Source: a virus. From it: DNA of 64,000 nucleotides. The number at the start of each line of letters is the position of its first letter. The stretch's first letter is position 1. The notes beneath the pieces are model-generated. The model was not told the origin of the DNA. It searched no databases and worked only from the letters and a program-made list of their open reading frames with translations. This document shows positions 20,671-32,226 of the stretch, in pieces. Location: positions 1-64,000 of IMG/VR virus record IMGVR_UViG_3300032289_001838; one strand, given 5' to 3'. The position numbers were made by a program, and so were the translations under genes.

Positions 20671-21864
20671 TTACAACAACCAAGTTAAACTTTCTTTTTT
20701 ATCGTTTACCGTAAAATCCATCGTCTTGTGATGGTCAGCAACACGACTCACATCCTTTTGAACGGTAACAGGACTTGTTACTTTAGATATTTTAGAAATC
20801 ATTGCTTTGTTATAAGCTATTTGATCATTTCTAAGTCTCAATGCGGTTTCACGAACCCACAAACCAATACCCATAGACATTACCAAGTCATCGTTATAAC
20901 CTCTCATCGCTTCTGCTTTAGGTCCGTTCCATATAAATACATTTAATTCCTCAAACAATCTTTTAGACTTCATAATCACTTGTTTTTGTCTAAAAAATAA
21001 CTCTAAATTACTTACTATTAACGGTCTATTTTTACTGGTTGTAGTAAATCCAGCTACTAATTTTTTATCTTGTGTATTTAACTTATTACTATACGACTTC
21101 TCCACATCTACAATGGTAAGATCTGTTGCACTATAAAATGTATTTTGATAATCTCTATCTATTATCTGTTGAAGTGTTCCCCAACCTACGTTATTATTTT
21201 CTACAACCAATAAAGCATTGTTATATTCGGTTGCAACAGTCACCAATAAATTACCATAATCTTTGGTTGTTAGTTGACCTCTATATTCAGCAACTTGTTC
21301 CATCGTCTCAATATCGATAACATGAAATGCACTAAAATCTCCACCATCTCCTCTTGCACAGTCTGCTGTTAATAGATAATTTTTACTATAATTAGGATAA
21401 TCCCATATCCATAAATCTTGATTATTACCACGCTTTTCTACGGGATCTTTTATATAGGTCTGTTTATAAAACTCAAGAACATCTACACTCACAACTTGAT
21501 TACCTGATGTACTAAAATCACAATTATGTGAAACAATTCCGTCTACATTAAAAACATTACCGCCGGAGACGTTTACTATATCATATAAATCAATGGGATT
21601 TTCGAATTTTTCTATCGTTATGACAACTACATCTACACCATTTGCTCCCGATATTTTTGATCCGATTTTGATATCGTGAGATCGCAGTACTGAATTTTTA
21701 TATATAAAAGGATGATTGTCCGAACATTTTATTATTTTGCCATTACTCAATAATATTTTATAGTAACAATCCTTTTTTATTTTTCTGATTCCAAAAAAAT
21801 CTTGGTAACCTGTTGGAGTCAAAATTTGAAACTTAGTATTTAGTTTAACATTTGAATCGATCAT
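20671..21864 (-). CDS. Large terminase C-terminal half (nuclease) preceded by split intein C-fragment
   Basis: Residues 1-114 are the C-terminal part of an intein: CSDNHPF (block B-like, His), LYDIVNVSGGNVFNVDGIV and a final Ser-His-Asn, followed by Cys as the +1 residue. Residues 115-397 are the terminase nuclease: LLTADCARGDGGDFSAFHVI, VVENNNVGWGTLQQI and GYNDDLVMSMGIG carry the expected acidic metal ligands. Protein splicing with the product of 22635-23468 should join ...AQECD to CDFSTSG..., restoring a normal packaging motor of about 529 residues. The long C-fragment and the sequence NTKFQILTPTGYQDFFGI resemble the atypically split AceL-TerL intein. The start overlaps the endonuclease stop by four bases. 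Confidence 0.9.
   Translation of the reverse strand: MIDSNVKLNTKFQILTPTGYQDFFGIRKIKKDCYYKILLSNGKIIKCSDNHPFIYKNSVLRSHDIKIGSKISGANGVDVVVITIEKFENPIDLYDIVNVSGGNVFNVDGIVSHNCDFSTSGNQVVSVDVLEFYKQTYIKDPVEKRGNNQDLWIWDYPNYSKNYLLTADCARGDGGDFSAFHVIDIETMEQVAEYRGQLTTKDYGNLLVTVATEYNNALLVVENNNVGWGTLQQIIDRDYQNTFYSATDLTIVDVEKSYSNKLNTQDKKLVAGFTTTSKNRPLIVSNLELFFRQKQVIMKSKRLFEELNVFIWNGPKAEAMRGYNDDLVMSMGIGLWVRETALRLRNDQIAYNKAMISKISKVTSPVTVQKDVSRVADHHKTMDFTVNDKKESLTWLL
21523..21864 (-). other. Split intein C-fragment (IntC, 114 residues)
   Basis: The segment runs from the ATG at 21864 to the terminal Asn codon at 21523-21525. The Cys codon at 21520-21522 is the first C-extein residue. His-Asn at the end and His in CSDNHP are the catalytic positions of block G and block B. 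At 114 residues it is the long partner, opposite to the usual split-intein arrangement. Confidence 0.9.
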
Positions 21865-22613
21865 ATGTCTATTGTAAATAGTTTACACCCTAACAAATTT
21901 TTAATTTCAGTTTCTCTTTGGAAATCTCTTTGTTTCAATTTACCATTTTTATAGTGTCGTTTTTCGTATATTTCTAACACAACATTATTTTTCTCATCAT
22001 ATGCATCTAGAAAATAACCAAGTTCTTTAAGAAAAACTTCGCCACCATTTTCAGCGTGTCTAAATGTATATCCGTGTGTATTACCAAATTCCTCAATTAG
22101 TTGTATTGATTTTTTGTTATAACGAGGTATAATTTGACCTTTTATTTCCGATAAATACTTTAATGTGGATACTCTCATTTTTTGTTTTGTTTCTGGAGTA
22201 TGTAGTTTACCAATTTGAGTTTTATGATATTCCGGACATCTACGACAATATTTTGTCCATGTTATTTTTTTCCCACATTGACATTTTAATTTTGTCAAAT
22301 CATAATTATGTTCAACAATAAAACGAATCCGATAAGAAAAATTATACCGTCCCTTGTAACTTTGTTGTTGTTTAAATGCATTTTCTAGAATACTCGTATG
22401 AAAAAGAATTGATTTATATAGTTTTGGGTTTTGTTTTATCAGAGTTCTATTCTTAGCACGACCAAATAAAAATTTATAATAATTTTCATTTAACAATTCG
22501 GATTTGGTTTCTTCACGTGAATATAAATCAGTTTCACAACTTAATTGTTTCTTGATTTTATCCCAACCGACCGTTACATAATTTTTAGGTACACACATAT
22601 GGGTTGCAATCAC
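21861..22613 (-). CDS. Vsr-like homing endonuclease inside the split terminase
   Basis: This frame (GTG at 22613, or ATG at 22598) lies between the two terminase halves. It starts 21 bases after the first and overlaps the second by four bases. A four-Cys zinc cluster (KCQCGKK and CRRCPEYH) lies mid-protein at about residues 120-145. The C-terminal part has EVFLKELGYFLDAYDEKNNV, then VLEIYEKRHY and RDFQRETEIKNLLGC. That is the pattern of Vsr/PD-(D/E)XK-like endonucleases of the EDxHD type described as partners of fractured genes. It most likely cuts intein-free terminase genes of related phages and so spreads the insertion. It is not needed for splicing itself. Confidence 0.75.
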   Translation of the reverse strand: MIATHMCVPKNYVTVGWDKIKKQLSCETDLYSREETKSELLNENYYKFLFGRAKNRTLIKQNPKLYKSILFHTSILENAFKQQQSYKGRYNFSYRIRFIVEHNYDLTKLKCQCGKKITWTKYCRRCPEYHKTQIGKLHTPETKQKMRVSTLKYLSEIKGQIIPRYNKKSIQLIEEFGNTHGYTFRHAENGGEVFLKELGYFLDAYDEKNNVVLEIYEKRHYKNGKLKQRDFQRETEIKNLLGCKLFTIDI

Positions 22614-22634
22614 ATTCTTGTATAATACATATGA

Positions 22635-23468
22635 TTACAATTCTCCGGAATACAATTTTTCTAAAGAAATGTCAAATTCTTTTCCTGATGTTTTATCTCT
22701 GACTCTAATCGTAGACTCTCCCCATAGACAATCACATTCTTGGGCTGCGCCTTTTACACCAGATAATTCTGTTTGTTTATCTCTCCAAGCTTGATCTCTT
22801 TCTGGATGCAGATGCCATGGTAACCTTATAGTTTTAAAATTGTTCTTACCTTCTTCAGCTTCTACCCACGTTTTATGGAAGAAATTGCCAACGCCATTTG
22901 GAGTACTTAATATAATAGCTCTACCACCAGTGGACAATGTATATTGAGCAGACAGCCAAATTTCTTCAATGCCATCGATAAACGCAGCTTCGTCAATGAT
23001 TAGTAATGATAGTGCGGAAGAACGACCAGCTGTACCAGCAGAAGAGACTGCTTTGATTTGAGAACCATTCTTTAAACGCAATGATAATCTATTATCTTCT
23101 ACGCATGGTACTTTTAACCAAGATGGCAAGTTATCATTAGCAAATCTAACTTTGGTAACGATTTCTTTTGCGGTTTCTTGTGTAATACTAATACAAAGAA
23201 TGTTCTTGTCGTTGTGGAATGTCATTAACCACAAACTATAAGCCGCAGTAAGAGTACTAATACCCATCTGACGACTTTTGAGAACAACGTTTAACTGATT
23301 ATCAACAAAGTCTTGTAAAGCGTCTTCTTGGAATGGATATAGTTCAAATCCAACAGTACCACGTATAGGATGTTGAATTTTGACATACTTCTTCATGAAG
23401 TATATAGGATCCTCAATACACTTCTTATACTCTTGTTTTATTATTTCTCTTAGATTTGGCTGACTCAT
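22635..23468 (-). CDS. Large terminase N-terminal half (ATPase) with split intein N-fragment
   Basis: Residues 1-246 are the ATPase domain of a gp17-type terminase: VVLKSRQMGIST (Walker A), LLIIDEAAFIDG (Walker B), STPNG (motif C-like), ending KGAAQECD. The remaining 31 residues, starting CLWGESTIRV and including DISLEKLY, are an intein N-fragment with the catalytic first Cys. The stop codon then truncates the gene before the nuclease domain. Alone it could hydrolyse ATP but not cut DNA; after trans-splicing with the 20671-21864 product it makes the complete motor that pumps DNA through the portal. It overlaps the upstream Zn-protein gene by 44 bases. Confidence 0.92.
   Translation of the reverse strand: MSQPNLREIIKQEYKKCIEDPIYFMKKYVKIQHPIRGTVGFELYPFQEDALQDFVDNQLNVVLKSRQMGISTLTAAYSLWLMTFHNDKNILCISITQETAKEIVTKVRFANDNLPSWLKVPCVEDNRLSLRLKNGSQIKAVSSAGTAGRSSALSLLIIDEAAFIDGIEEIWLSAQYTLSTGGRAIILSTPNGVGNFFHKTWVEAEEGKNNFKTIRLPWHLHPERDQAWRDKQTELSGVKGAAQECDCLWGESTIRVRDKTSGKEFDISLEKLYSGEL
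22638..22730 (-). other. Split intein N-fragment (IntN, 31 residues)
   Basis: The segment runs from the Cys codon at 22728-22730 to the last codon before the stop. The start CLWGESTIRV with a charged turn and ISLEKLY is block A of an intein. At 31 residues it is far shorter than classical N-fragments (about 100) and close to the 25-residue AceL-TerL type. Confidence 0.9.
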
Positions 23469-26639: not shown

Positions 26640-28145
26640 CTATTTTCGATTCCAGATAAATTTCATATGTCCACAATCCCAAATTCTATCATATCCATTA
26701 ATCTGCATATTTTGCCATTCACTCAAATTAATATCAAATTTTTCAAGTTTTTCTTTTAATTTATGTTTTTGAAAATGATTTCTTTCAATTGGTACACCTT
26801 TGTTTTTGTGAAAATAATGATAACCAGGTAAAGTGTCATCTACAAATGACATACCAATTTGTTTATATAAATTACCTGTAAATAATCTTTTATCACTATA
26901 TGTTACAATAGAATTTACATCATAATTTTTTATAAAATGATTGAATAATTTAGAAGCACCTCCTATTACATTTGTATTTAATATATTACAATACCTAGAT
27001 AACTCATATTGATATTTTTTGTCATATCTAGATTTAACAAAAGTCATTAGTGACACCAAAACATTATTATGATATAATCCTAATCTTATAGATGATGTAT
27101 CATTTCCCTGTATATGATTATCAGTCAAAAATGCAGATTTTTCATCATTAATCACTGGTTTTATTTCACATTTGCGTGCAAATATTCTTTTGGACTTACC
27201 AATTTTACTTAATAAAATGCTTTTTATTATATCTTGTTTACATCTCCATTCCCAATCCCATATATGCATCAATTGAATATTTTTATCAAGTGACAACTTA
27301 GTTTTATGTAAATGATAATTTTTATCTTTACCACCAGCAAGTTCACTGTGCCAATATATACCATCACATTCTATGCCTAAATTCAAATGTGATACTAAAA
27401 TATCAATTTCATCCCCGTCTAATATATTTCTATCGTGTTGTTTAGTCACAACTCCGTATGAATGTAAAAAATTTAATATTTCAGACTCAATGGTAGATTT
27501 AAACCTATTATGTGGATTACAGATTAAACATCTGGGTATATTACCAGAATATAAATTATCTTTAAATTCATTGTTACACACACAACATTTAAATTTGTAT
27601 AAATTATTATATTCTGTGCCTATATATTCATCTTTATCAAATAGTGGAACAACCACACCTTTTAATCTGTTTCCTTCAAAAATATTATTTAAAGATTCTT
27701 GAATTTTTTGAAGTCGTCTGTTTTCTTTGATATATGATAATTGAGATACATTATCAATATTATTATTTTCTAAATATTGTTTATACTTTTCAGATTTAAA
27801 TCCAATTTCTCCAGCATTAGCTCTTTCTTTTGTTTTTTTAAGCGTATTTGGAGATACATTCATACCATATTTTTCATTGTTGGTTTGAATCATTTTTTCT
27901 CTGTTGTTAAAATTTTCATATCCGTATTTTTTTAATTTAGTTTTTTTTCCTTTCTCTAAATTATTATAGTTTTCATTGCCATATCTTTCTTTTAAAGTTT
28001 CTTTCATTTTGGAAATCATATTATCATATGCACCATTTTCTCTTTTTTGTTTTATTTTTTCTTTAACACTAGGCAATTGTGATGGATGATAAACACCATA
28101 TTTTTTAAAAAATGATTCTCTAATTTTTTTACCTCGTTCAGTCAT
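26640..28145 (-). CDS. Free-standing homing endonuclease (NUMOD-like repeats, Vsr-like nuclease, GNAT-like tail)
   Basis: The 501-residue product is read from ATG 28145, eight bases after a perfect AAGGAG ribosome site. Residues about 15-125 hold repeats built on KYG..N and KKYGxxN, a DNA-binding pattern of homing endonucleases. A four-Cys zinc site (CCVC, CLIC) follows, then a Vsr-like nuclease with SEILNFLHSYG and GIECDGIYWHSELAGG. Residues about 330-460 (DNHIQGND, LVSLMTF, GGASKLFNHFI) resemble the GNAT-like region also seen in Mom proteins. The gene sits between the sheath terminator and the cargo-like operon with its own signals, the mark of a mobile insertion. Confidence 0.75.
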   Translation of the reverse strand: MTERGKKIRESFFKKYGVYHPSQLPSVKEKIKQKRENGAYDNMISKMKETLKERYGNENYNNLEKGKKTKLKKYGYENFNNREKMIQTNNEKYGMNVSPNTLKKTKERANAGEIGFKSEKYKQYLENNNIDNVSQLSYIKENRRLQKIQESLNNIFEGNRLKGVVVPLFDKDEYIGTEYNNLYKFKCCVCNNEFKDNLYSGNIPRCLICNPHNRFKSTIESEILNFLHSYGVVTKQHDRNILDGDEIDILVSHLNLGIECDGIYWHSELAGGKDKNYHLHKTKLSLDKNIQLMHIWDWEWRCKQDIIKSILLSKIGKSKRIFARKCEIKPVINDEKSAFLTDNHIQGNDTSSIRLGLYHNNVLVSLMTFVKSRYDKKYQYELSRYCNILNTNVIGGASKLFNHFIKNYDVNSIVTYSDKRLFTGNLYKQIGMSFVDDTLPGYHYFHKNKGVPIERNHFQKHKLKEKLEKFDINLSEWQNMQINGYDRIWDCGHMKFIWNRK

Positions 28146-28153
28146 AAACAATA

Positions 28154-28251: not shown

Positions 28252-31200
28252 TTAGACTCCCCCAGGGAAAACTGCTCCTGTAGGCAAGATGTTGAAGTCA
28301 AGTATTATGAATTCAGCAGTACGGGTTGGTTGGATATAGATTTGACCATATAGAATATTTCTATCAATTAGGTCAGGAGTATTGTTTTCAGCATCCATCT
28401 TGACTTGGAATGCGTAGATACCGTTACGTTGTTGTACTGATTCCAAGTATGGAGTTACAATACTCAAGAAACGATTTCTTGTAGAAGCGACGTTTTGTTC
28501 GAATACCAAGTAGTTGCTCGAACTTGCGATAAACTTCTTCAAGTTGATCAACAAACGACGAACATTGATACGATCCAAAGCACTTGGAGCAATTTGTAGA
28601 GTCTTTTGACCCCATACACAAATACCTTGGCCTGGGAATGCTGCAATTGGATTTACACGACCTTCATATAGTGTATCACGTTCAGCATGGGTTACACGAT
28701 CAAGTACTTGTACTGCGGTTGGAATACCACCACGGTTTAAACCGGCTGGTGCGTACCATTCAGCAGCAGAATTATCGTTAGCAGCGTAAACTGCTGGCAA
28801 TACTACTGAAGGAGGGACACTAATAATCTTGTTGGTATTAGTATCTAGGATTTTAACCCAAGGATAATAAGTACCTACATAGTTACTGTCGATATCAGCG
28901 ACACTGTTGATAGCAGCATCGATCAATCCTACAGTTTGATTACTTGCTGGGAATACTACGTTATCCATGATGTAGAAACAATCTTGACGAGTACCACACA
29001 TATCAATTACCAATTCGGTAACATAACTGTGTAGAGAACGGAAGATACCAGGCAACACGATCAAGTTGATATCAAATTCATCGGCGTTACTTAATGCTCC
29101 GATACATTGCTTGTAAGCAATACTACCTGGACTATTAATATTTGTACAATCTAGACCTTGAGTGTTGCCTGGAGTAATGTTACTACCAACGTTGATTGGA
29201 ATTGCTGGCCATTGACCTTCAAATCCACCTTGAAAGCCTAGAACGAACTTACGTAGTTTTACATATGTAGATTCATTTACAGCGTCGTAAACACTTGGAA
29301 TACTACCACTCAAGCTTGGGTTTAGTAGTGAACCAGTACTTGCTGATGTACCTTGAGCATAATATTTAGCGGTAGATGTACCGTAAACTTTATCTTCAAG
29401 ATCGAAGTCGATATTCAAACCATTACTATCGGTGCTACCATAGTATGGCAATGGATTGAAATATTGTTTAGTGTTGTTATCTACACCAACTCCAAAAGAA
29501 GAAGTTGGATATAGAGATTGAATTTCGGAATCAGTTCCTGGAACTGCACCGAACACAGTACCAGATGGATACTTACCAGGAGCTAGACCATAAATACTTG
29601 CTTTACTATATTGTACGTATGGTACATAGATGTTTGCGGTACTATTGATTGGAGTACTATAAGATTCGAATCCATATGGTATACATGTAACAGGATATGC
29701 TACATCTGACATTTCAATTCTAATATATCTACTCAAGTTGGCATAGGTGCCATATTGAATGATCTTACCAGCATAAGTAATATAAGCATATCTATCACCA
29801 ATTCTACGTGCAATGAAATTTGCACTGTCTGGATCTAGATTCAAGTTTTGGAAGATTTCCAAATACTTTGGCTTCTTATCAGTATCACTATAAGCACGAA
29901 CTCCTAGAGTGAATGAACCCCAATCGCTTCCTGGAACTGTGCCAGCCAACTTAACGTTGCTGATTTCAATCTTGTATTTTCTGTTACTCAAAGTACCATC
30001 ACTCAACGTGTGTGCTTTGAACAATTGGAACTTGGTTGGTACTGCAGCTTCATTTGCACTGCCTCTGAATGGAGCAATCTTTTGGGAATAGATCCAAGGA
30101 GTAGTTGCATTTGTAATACCAAATTGACTGTCTCCAGCATTTAAATTAGTACTATATTGATCAACGAACTTTAGAGGTTCGCCTACGATTGTACTTCCAG
30201 ATAGACTATTAGTACCAACTTGCAATCTCCATCCGAGTGTACTGGTCTTTTCAGATACGAACTTCTTAATACTATCTTCGAATAAAACATAGTTGTAAGC
30301 AGCTTCTACTTTTTGACCAGCAATTTGTTTGTTTGGATTTCCAACTGTTGGATCGATTCCGAATACATCTTTAATATAGTTATTATCATTTTCATTCAAA
30401 CTGAAATCATAATATCCATATGTGCCTGAACTTGTACTACCATTTGTATTTGAAAAGCTGTATCTTAATGCCAAATTATAAACGTTTTCATTTGGATTAA
30501 TTAGACTCTTGTATGGGAATGTGCTACTTGTTAATTGTGATAGTGTAGTGTTATTGAATCCATATACTTCATAATCATTGCTGAATTGTGTAGAAGCATT
30601 TTGGGTATTTGCTAATACTGCCAATATCATATTTTGACGACCCGATGTATTTGGATTACATTGATCTCCGCTATTTGTTCCATTTGGACTGAATGTTCCG
30701 GAGTATTTTCCAAATGCGCCACTAATTACACCTTTAAGTTCTAATCCGGCGACACATGTTCCTTCTCCACGAATAGAAGCGATACTTCCACTAATTAGTA
30801 CTGGATTACCCGATGATACATTAAATACATCTGTATTTTGATTTATAGTTGCATTCTTTATGTAAGAAGATGACAAGAATGCAACTGTAGTAGTACTTTC
30901 AGCAAAAGCTGTTGAAATTGCTGTTTCAGCTGAAACGTTTTGTCCTTGTACACTTGAAGTTAAATAATAATAACCACGATTTGCATTTGTAGATAGTGTA
31001 TAACCAACGCCTTTTCTTACAAGTGTAATTAAACTATTAGCTCCACCAAGTCCACCAATTGCAATCGTTTGACCAGCATATAAAATACTACCGCTTAATG
31101 TTCCAGTTCCATCAGTACTGTTTGCGTTTACCACACTAGTAGCCGCTTCAGATCCAAATGTTACATTAATAGATCCACTCAATTGAATTGTAGAAACGTC

Positions 31201-32226
31201 ATAACGAGATTCATATTGAGCTGAAGCAGATAAGAAACTTGCGGTTGTAAATGTTCTTGCTTGATTTGAAATAAATTTAGCAAAAACAAATCCATATACG
31301 TTATTTGAGAACGAAGATGTTAAATAAGCGTATGGTTTATCTGTTGGATATGTAGGAGCATTATTACCACTACCACTCGTAGAAGTAAATACGGCACTAT
31401 CAAACAACAATTTATGTTTATTAGCCCCACCCGTACCACCTGTTACAGTGACACTTCCACTGATACGTGATTTTTCAAAGTCAAATCCAGCTAACACATA
31501 TCCGGCGCCTGCATTAGCCAATCCACCGTATACGTATCCTTTAGCTAAAACTGCGTTTTTGAATTGCGTACCCAAATAGCTTGGAGTAACTTTAAACAAT
31601 TTTCCTAAACTAGCTGAATCTTGTAATGATTGAGATAGACTGGTTATACCAGATAATCCAGACAAACTTGACAAAAATATATTTAGTTCTGAGTAAGTTG
31701 CTTGTGTAAATGTAGATCCTGATAAAAATTTAGTGGATCCGATATTACCTATTACAGCTGATGAACCTGTGATATTAAGTGGCAAACTTAGTTGAGTGTA
31801 GTTAATATTGGACGTATAATTAGTATCATCCAAATACATAAATGAATCGTTTGTAATAGCACCAGCATCAGCGTTACGGTTCCATACGCCTGGTTGAGCA
31901 TAAACGATCAATGGGCTCTTTTGCCAGTAACCAGTAAGACCACCTACACGAACAACGGTAACAATACCTTGTTGTTGTAGATATTCTTTTGCGGTATATG
32001 GTCCGTAATATACTCCGTCAGCAACACCAAACGTACTTTCTAGAGTAGTTACGTCTGAAATGGTTGCTGGGAAGAATGCTGGACCGTCAGCAAATGGAGC
32101 TACTATAGCTCCACCTATATTTGCGACACCTTGTGCGAGTGCCGAAAGATCGTTTTCACGGGTAAAAACCCCTGGACTTACTATATTTTGTGTTGGTGCG
32201 AATGTTCCACCTTCTTGTATTGGCAT
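28252..32226 (-). CDS. Tail sheath protein (gp18-like), extra long
   Basis: The N-terminus has VSPGVFTRENDLS and APFADGPAFFPATISDVTTL, ending with FGVADGVYYGPYTAKEYLQQ. The C-terminal region has GLNRGGIPTAVQVLDRVTHA, INVRRLLINLKKFIASSSN and LYGQIYIQPTRTAEFIILDF. Both ends match T4-type contractile sheath proteins, whose termini form the handshake that links subunits. The middle (about residues 130-850) is Ser/Thr/Gly/Asn-rich beta structure and makes the protein 1,324 residues, twice T4 gp18 (659), probably adding outward-facing domains. The leader has a good ribosome site (GAAAGGA) and a TATTTATA further upstream. A strong terminator follows. Sheath contraction drives the tube through the cell envelope. 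Confidence 0.9.
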   Translation of the reverse strand: MPIQEGGTFAPTQNIVSPGVFTRENDLSALAQGVANIGGAIVAPFADGPAFFPATISDVTTLESTFGVADGVYYGPYTAKEYLQQQGIVTVVRVGGLTGYWQKSPLIVYAQPGVWNRNADAGAITNDSFMYLDDTNYTSNINYTQLSLPLNITGSSAVIGNIGSTKFLSGSTFTQATYSELNIFLSSLSGLSGITSLSQSLQDSASLGKLFKVTPSYLGTQFKNAVLAKGYVYGGLANAGAGYVLAGFDFEKSRISGSVTVTGGTGGANKHKLLFDSAVFTSTSGSGNNAPTYPTDKPYAYLTSSFSNNVYGFVFAKFISNQARTFTTASFLSASAQYESRYDVSTIQLSGSINVTFGSEAATSVVNANSTDGTGTLSGSILYAGQTIAIGGLGGANSLITLVRKGVGYTLSTNANRGYYYLTSSVQGQNVSAETAISTAFAESTTTVAFLSSSYIKNATINQNTDVFNVSSGNPVLISGSIASIRGEGTCVAGLELKGVISGAFGKYSGTFSPNGTNSGDQCNPNTSGRQNMILAVLANTQNASTQFSNDYEVYGFNNTTLSQLTSSTFPYKSLINPNENVYNLALRYSFSNTNGSTSSGTYGYYDFSLNENDNNYIKDVFGIDPTVGNPNKQIAGQKVEAAYNYVLFEDSIKKFVSEKTSTLGWRLQVGTNSLSGSTIVGEPLKFVDQYSTNLNAGDSQFGITNATTPWIYSQKIAPFRGSANEAAVPTKFQLFKAHTLSDGTLSNRKYKIEISNVKLAGTVPGSDWGSFTLGVRAYSDTDKKPKYLEIFQNLNLDPDSANFIARRIGDRYAYITYAGKIIQYGTYANLSRYIRIEMSDVAYPVTCIPYGFESYSTPINSTANIYVPYVQYSKASIYGLAPGKYPSGTVFGAVPGTDSEIQSLYPTSSFGVGVDNNTKQYFNPLPYYGSTDSNGLNIDFDLEDKVYGTSTAKYYAQGTSASTGSLLNPSLSGSIPSVYDAVNESTYVKLRKFVLGFQGGFEGQWPAIPINVGSNITPGNTQGLDCTNINSPGSIAYKQCIGALSNADEFDINLIVLPGIFRSLHSYVTELVIDMCGTRQDCFYIMDNVVFPASNQTVGLIDAAINSVADIDSNYVGTYYPWVKILDTNTNKIISVPPSVVLPAVYAANDNSAAEWYAPAGLNRGGIPTAVQVLDRVTHAERDTLYEGRVNPIAAFPGQGICVWGQKTLQIAPSALDRINVRRLLINLKKFIASSSNYLVFEQNVASTRNRFLSIVTPYLESVQQRNGIYAFQVKMDAENNTPDLIDRNILYGQIYIQPTRTAEFIILDFNILPTGAVFPGGV

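Follow-up and report, generated by a model that had tools for sequence, protein, structure and literature searches.

The large terminase gene (terL) in the virus record IMGVR_UViG_3300032289_001838, which belongs to a T4-like phage, a virus of bacteria, is encoded in two halves divided by an AceL-type intein with an atypical split, with a homing-endonuclease-like gene (HEN) lying in the gap between them. The stretch analyzed, referred to here as the window, comprises positions 1–64,000 of this record, which is 81,589 bp long in total (the window plus L310; L numbers denote the loci or stretches compared). The locus is best explained overall as a mobile fractured-gene element in terL with splicing halves, a homing nuclease and a self-controlling leader, a reading to which a probability of about 0.85 is assigned. 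According to this proposal, the N-terminal and C-terminal intein fragments (IntN and IntC) would associate in trans and splice the halves to a normal 529-aa terminase, HEN would cut intein-less terL so that the whole block of IntN, endonuclease and IntC is copied in, and HEN would bind a half-site in its own leader without cutting it, repressing the promoter of its own gene in the manner of T4 I-TevI. Wherever HEN decays, the split intein would stay behind. Because splicing would restore the terminase, terL, though essential, would tolerate the block at one of its conserved sites.

An earlier note on this DNA had described the two halves and the intein, and at the base level its description is borne out; all features of the element lie on the minus strand. 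The N-half open reading frame (ORF; 22635..23468, 277 aa) consists of a 246-aa ATPase extein followed by IntN and the stop codon, and it matches the T4-type terminase ATPase (Terminase_6N, 4e-13; phrog_5989, a terminase PHROG, 5.5e-42). The C-half ORF (20671..21864, 397 aa) starts with IntC and continues into a 283-aa extein that begins with Cys+1 and matches terminase PHROGs, identifying it as the terminase nuclease. IntN (CLWGEST...SGEL, 31 aa, 22638..22730) opens with Cys1, while IntC (MIDSNV...IVSHN, 114 aa, 21523..21864) carries an SxNH block-B-like motif, ends in Ser-His-Asn and is followed by C+1 D F S T S G. Joined, the two exteins give the 529 residues and the junction AQECD/CDFSTSG that had been claimed. 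The residues absent from intact homologues, such as L018 (98% extein identity), are exactly those of the intein. Neither a second terminase N-half nor a second intact terminase was found in the 81,589-bp record or in 10 related records of 92–321 kb.

The IntC of the window matches CatC (PDB 6DSL; E 2.8e-17) and, more weakly, gp41-1 inteins, and the intein is therefore assigned to the AceL/GOS/Cat-TerL type. CatC is an engineered consensus of the AceL and GOS TerL inteins, and the published IntN/IntC lengths are 25/104 for AceL, 37/115 for GOS (which has Ser1) and 30/104 for Cat (PMC11766414); the 31/114 residues of the window resemble these sizes, so that the fragments also place it with this kind. 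IntN alone gave no match in the PDB, being too short a query. The class 1 catalytic residues Cys1, block-B His, terminal His-Asn and Cys+1 are all present. Between the window and L010, the ratio of nonsynonymous to synonymous divergence (dN/dS) is 0.13 for IntN and 0.10 for IntC and ranges from 0.10 to 0.13 over IntN, HEN and IntC, which shows that purifying selection maintains all three. These data, together with the exact empty sites described below, support the view that terL is split by an atypically split intein of AceL type, and we infer from motifs and homology that the window halves are trans-spliced to one terminase. Two parts of the earlier description did not stand. The split had been called rare; relatives of the IntC are encoded in 231 IMG/VR stretches (one scan), and cultured phages carry the same split. 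A scan of genome contigs confirmed no chromosomal relative of IntC. Atypically split inteins are known in other hosts too, such as PolB16 OarG with 15/168 residues (PMC10189870). The two-gene picture had also overlooked a third, HEN-like gene at 21861–22598, and because this gene sits in the gap between the halves, the locus is a three-gene fractured-gene element.

The terL insertion site is intact in 63 of the 80 best C-half relatives and in 72 of the 80 best N-half relatives. The closest locus by its flanks, L018, has exteins 99.2 and 95.8% identical and a portal gene 97.6% identical to those of the window, and its terL runs continuously across the site. Conversely, L007 and L008 carry the element at 98.9–99.5% DNA identity, although their exteins are only 89.6 and 82.3% identical. 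The synonymous divergence (dS) between the window and L007 is 0.58 and 1.17 for the exteins versus 0.05 for IntN, 0.01 for HEN and 0.00 for IntC, and L015 shows the same contrast. The trees disagree in the same manner: extein trees group the window with L010 (0.96), intein and HEN trees with L004/L007. Judged by these comparisons, IntN, HEN and IntC move as one block into exact empty sites. With its leader taken into account, the whole block looks like a mobile element that also controls itself.

Such control is suggested by the leader of HEN, which consists of an AT-rich promoter-like box, ATATGTATT (22624..22632), and a 15-bp copy of the insertion site, the candidate operator (22606..22620), directly upstream of the HEN start. 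The copy (CAAGAATGTGATTGT; CAAGAATGTGATTGC in the window) reproduces CAAGAATGTGAT/TGT of terL, the left half of the insertion and presumed homing site (22728..22742), which codes for QECD/C. It is kept at 0–3 mismatches in most loci with a free HEN and a spacer, including those whose HENs are about 55% identical. Over 16 divergent loci the mismatches total 30, whereas 500 scrambled targets averaged 101 and never fell below 61, and the copy holds 1.60 bits per base versus 0.53–0.58 in its flanks and at most 0.81 after best-match selection in shuffled spacers. In several loci the copy resembles the consensus more than it resembles the terL codons of the same locus, and it therefore did not arise by a recent duplication. 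In most loci it begins 11–12 bp after the start of a ATATTTATA-like box. Since such boxes are enriched just before genes of the window phage, the box is a promoter candidate: TATTTATA precedes 13 of 68 genes on the sense strand versus 1 in shuffled sequence, and 16 of its 26 minus-strand copies fall within the 8% of intergenic DNA. Because the leader lacks the right half of the empty site, it could be bound but should not be cut. By analogy with I-TevI, we judge it fairly probable that HEN binds this half-site and represses its own promoter. The wider proposal, held to be slightly more likely than not, is that such repression through a copy of half the homing site evolved independently of I-TevI in a nuclease family unrelated to it, and that the atypical TerL split itself arose by HEN invasion of the loop after IntN, leaving nuclease-less splits as relics.

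Some further observations concern the leader. In the 81,589-bp record, boxes like ATATTTATA or CTATTTATA on the sense strand stand ahead of the start codon, often by 4–16 nt, in about 20 of the 68 genes predicted, and they might give leaderless transcripts. L181, L184, L185 and L186 have the box flanked by a direct copy on one side and an inverted, partly decayed copy on the other; in these loci, unlike in the main group, the last IntN residues are encoded in frame by a QECD-like copy, with the box and the inverted copy after it. A function of the copy as an in-frame peptide was ruled out, as its frame relative to HEN is not conserved.

The copy might instead be a fossil of the arrival of the HEN gene without present function. 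Being the left half of the insertion site, it is what would be expected had HEN come with flanking target DNA. This is rather unlikely: most HEN-bearing loci keep the copy at 0–3 mismatches although their HENs are only about 55% identical, and they keep it in a mostly non-coding spacer with unconserved neighbors, as a rule at a constant distance from the box. The copy is, moreover, mostly gone wherever HEN is gone: the clean HEN-less split loci L122, L261, L265, L267, L270 and L309 have no copy, and it remains in L004 and L269, both of which still have leftover spacer. A second explanation is that the leader functions at the RNA level, where a hairpin formed around the start of HEN would limit translation of read-through transcripts and the copy would be conserved for pairing. 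Hairpins that place the copy in their loop or 3' arm occur in the window, L178 (z score −4.6), L180 (−2.7), L203 (−2.4) and others, and I-TevI has such a hairpin too (PMC2988022). As the cause of conservation this is likewise doubtful: the mean z score over loci is only about −1.2, the structures differ, and the invariant CAAGAA is mostly in the loop, so that pairing does not explain the identity of the copy to terL. The hairpin and an operator may coexist.

The ORF between the halves, called from a GTG at 21861–22613, more likely starts at the conserved ATG at 22598 (21861..22598, 245 aa), and its stop codon and the C-half start codon overlap in ATGA. The protein shows a Cys4 zinc-finger-like motif, D/E and His residues that are invariant across relatives, and a C-terminal domain whose alpha-beta-beta-beta-alpha-beta order in the predicted model (pLDDT, the predicted local distance difference test score, 88) corresponds to the core topology of PD-(D/E)XK nucleases. 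A PDB fold search with the model returned matches that were not significant, Vsr (1vsr) and AbaSI among them; the HEN profile gave chance matches only against PDB sequences; and sub-threshold matches to DUF559, MTES_1575, PvuRts1I-like_N and NUMOD3 occur in single HEN members. It is probably a homing endonuclease of PD-(D/E)XK/Vsr-like type, with a chemistry that can only be presumed because the window copy lacks a significant Pfam, PHROG or PDB match. The same lack could suit an unrelated cargo gene that is not the homing endonuclease of the unit. This is very improbable, given that all full-length relatives found in IMG/VR (100% to about 42% identity) sit in the gap between the two intein fragments of a terminase, with only remoter matches that share just the C-terminal domain sitting elsewhere, that the gene is transferred with the intein at about 99.5% identity, that degraded remnants persist in L004, L203, L263 and L290, and that the conserved residues and fold are nuclease-like. 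Least probable of all is a non-covalent two-subunit terminase with inert intein pieces, for although genes in pieces can work unjoined, as in a phage ribonucleotide reductase cited in PMC10448857, even divergent homologues retain the splice-site residues and intein motifs, which are under purifying selection, and close homologues of the window intein are reported to splice (PMC11766414).

Several points weigh against the mobile, self-controlling fractured-gene element as a whole. The 81,589-bp record is only a fragment, and the window HEN is without a significant family match, as stated above. No clear copy of the site was found in the HEN-bearing loci L179, L258 and L268, in which HEN directly follows or is fused to IntN, or in the more distant HEN-bearing loci L194, L198, L205, L280 and L304. 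The box of the window departs from ATATTTATA at two positions, and in only 15 of 26 leaders is the box within one mismatch.

The forms of the locus at the same terL site can be arranged as a series. In IMG/VR, a contiguous intein without a nuclease is found in L295, an IntN–HEN fusion in L268, a free-standing HEN in the window and most relatives, partial HENs in L203, L263 and L290, a HEN deleted between TAAAAATT repeats in L004, and clean split inteins without HEN and with gaps of 6–38 bp in L122, L261, L265 and L270. Among cultured phages with the same split place, the Vibrio phages K469, 1.244.A and VP-1 have a GIY-YIG nuclease fused to IntN, Aeromonas phage PX29 (17A/17B, a split annotated by its depositors) has one fused to IntC, and Vibrio phage Va1 has a nuclease of another type fused to IntC. 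We infer an order from contiguous intein through IntN–nuclease fusion, free nuclease and decaying nuclease to nuclease-less split; L295 could be a re-fusion instead of the starting state. A single-sequence AlphaFold model of the L295 contiguous intein (pLDDT 43) was not used.

Other inteins and endonucleases were also observed. The terL genes of L295, L198 and L309 have two inteins, the second IntC-like segment lying near N-extein residue 163 (DEC/...HN/CAF region) and, in L295, in a separate ORF. Contiguous terL mini-inteins are present in the Walker A motif (SGK/C...HN/TT) of L153 (Vibrio phage VP-1; 1831–4047) and at DEC/...HN/CAF in L155 (Desulfovibrio phage 7757; 3221–5353), a record without annotation. 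A T4-like portal gene (PF07230, 2e-72) is next downstream of the C-half in the window. A second homing endonuclease gene (26640–28151, minus strand; phrog_3339, E 1.5e-107; weak MTES_1575) adjoins, on its downstream side, the tail sheath gene at 28252–32226.

Three of its components are on record already: TerL split inteins of this type, nuclease-bearing fractured genes, and T4 intron homing endonucleases under operator control. Apparently new, judged by the open-access literature alone, is their combination: a free-standing nuclease of this HEN family within a TerL split intein, together with a conserved leader copy of the site. On an operator in a split-intein nuclease, that literature gave I-TevI-type reviews only. 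The locus shows in what setting the AceL/Cat-type TerL split inteins, which serve in protein labelling, occur naturally and what life cycle they pass through, and its relatives add many new examples of natural split inteins with a short IntN. Convergent autorepression of homing endonucleases can be tested directly and cheaply with the conserved leader copy.

Compared with AceL, GOS and Cat-TerL, the element has the same TerL host, a short IntN and long IntC, Cys1 and Cys+1 (as in AceL and Cat) and an IntC homologous to CatC, whereas its sequence differs and the window presents the full locus, with an endonuclease gene and leader in the gap. Fractured genes were reportedly described by Dassa et al. 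in 2009 as split inteins with a homing endonuclease between the halves, AceL NrdHF being an example. With these (NrdHF: PMC7891396) the window shares the three-gene order, the presumed mobility and a free-standing endonuclease ORF between half-genes, and it differs in its atypical split near the N end of the intein, its host gene and its leader site copy. As for a possible membership of HEN in the endonuclease family of that 2009 study, the analysis gave weak PD-(D/E)XK-type matches only, with Vsr among the non-significant fold matches. PX29 17A/17B, K469, 1.244.A, VP-1 and Va1 likewise carry a TerL intein divided at the corresponding point and a nuclease in between, but theirs is fused to IntN or IntC, whereas that of the window is free-standing with its own leader. 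In T4, I-TevI binds an operator upstream of its gene that agrees with the homing site in 15 of 20 positions and coincides in part with a late promoter; cleavage of the operator is about 100-fold less efficient, and similar candidate sites exist for I-TevII and I-TevIII (PMC2988022). These T4 endonucleases and the window have in common a homing-site-like sequence beside a promoter, or in the window a promoter-like box, just upstream of the endonuclease gene; the T4 elements belong to group I introns and encode GIY-YIG or HNH nucleases, whereas the window has an unrelated nuclease in a split intein.
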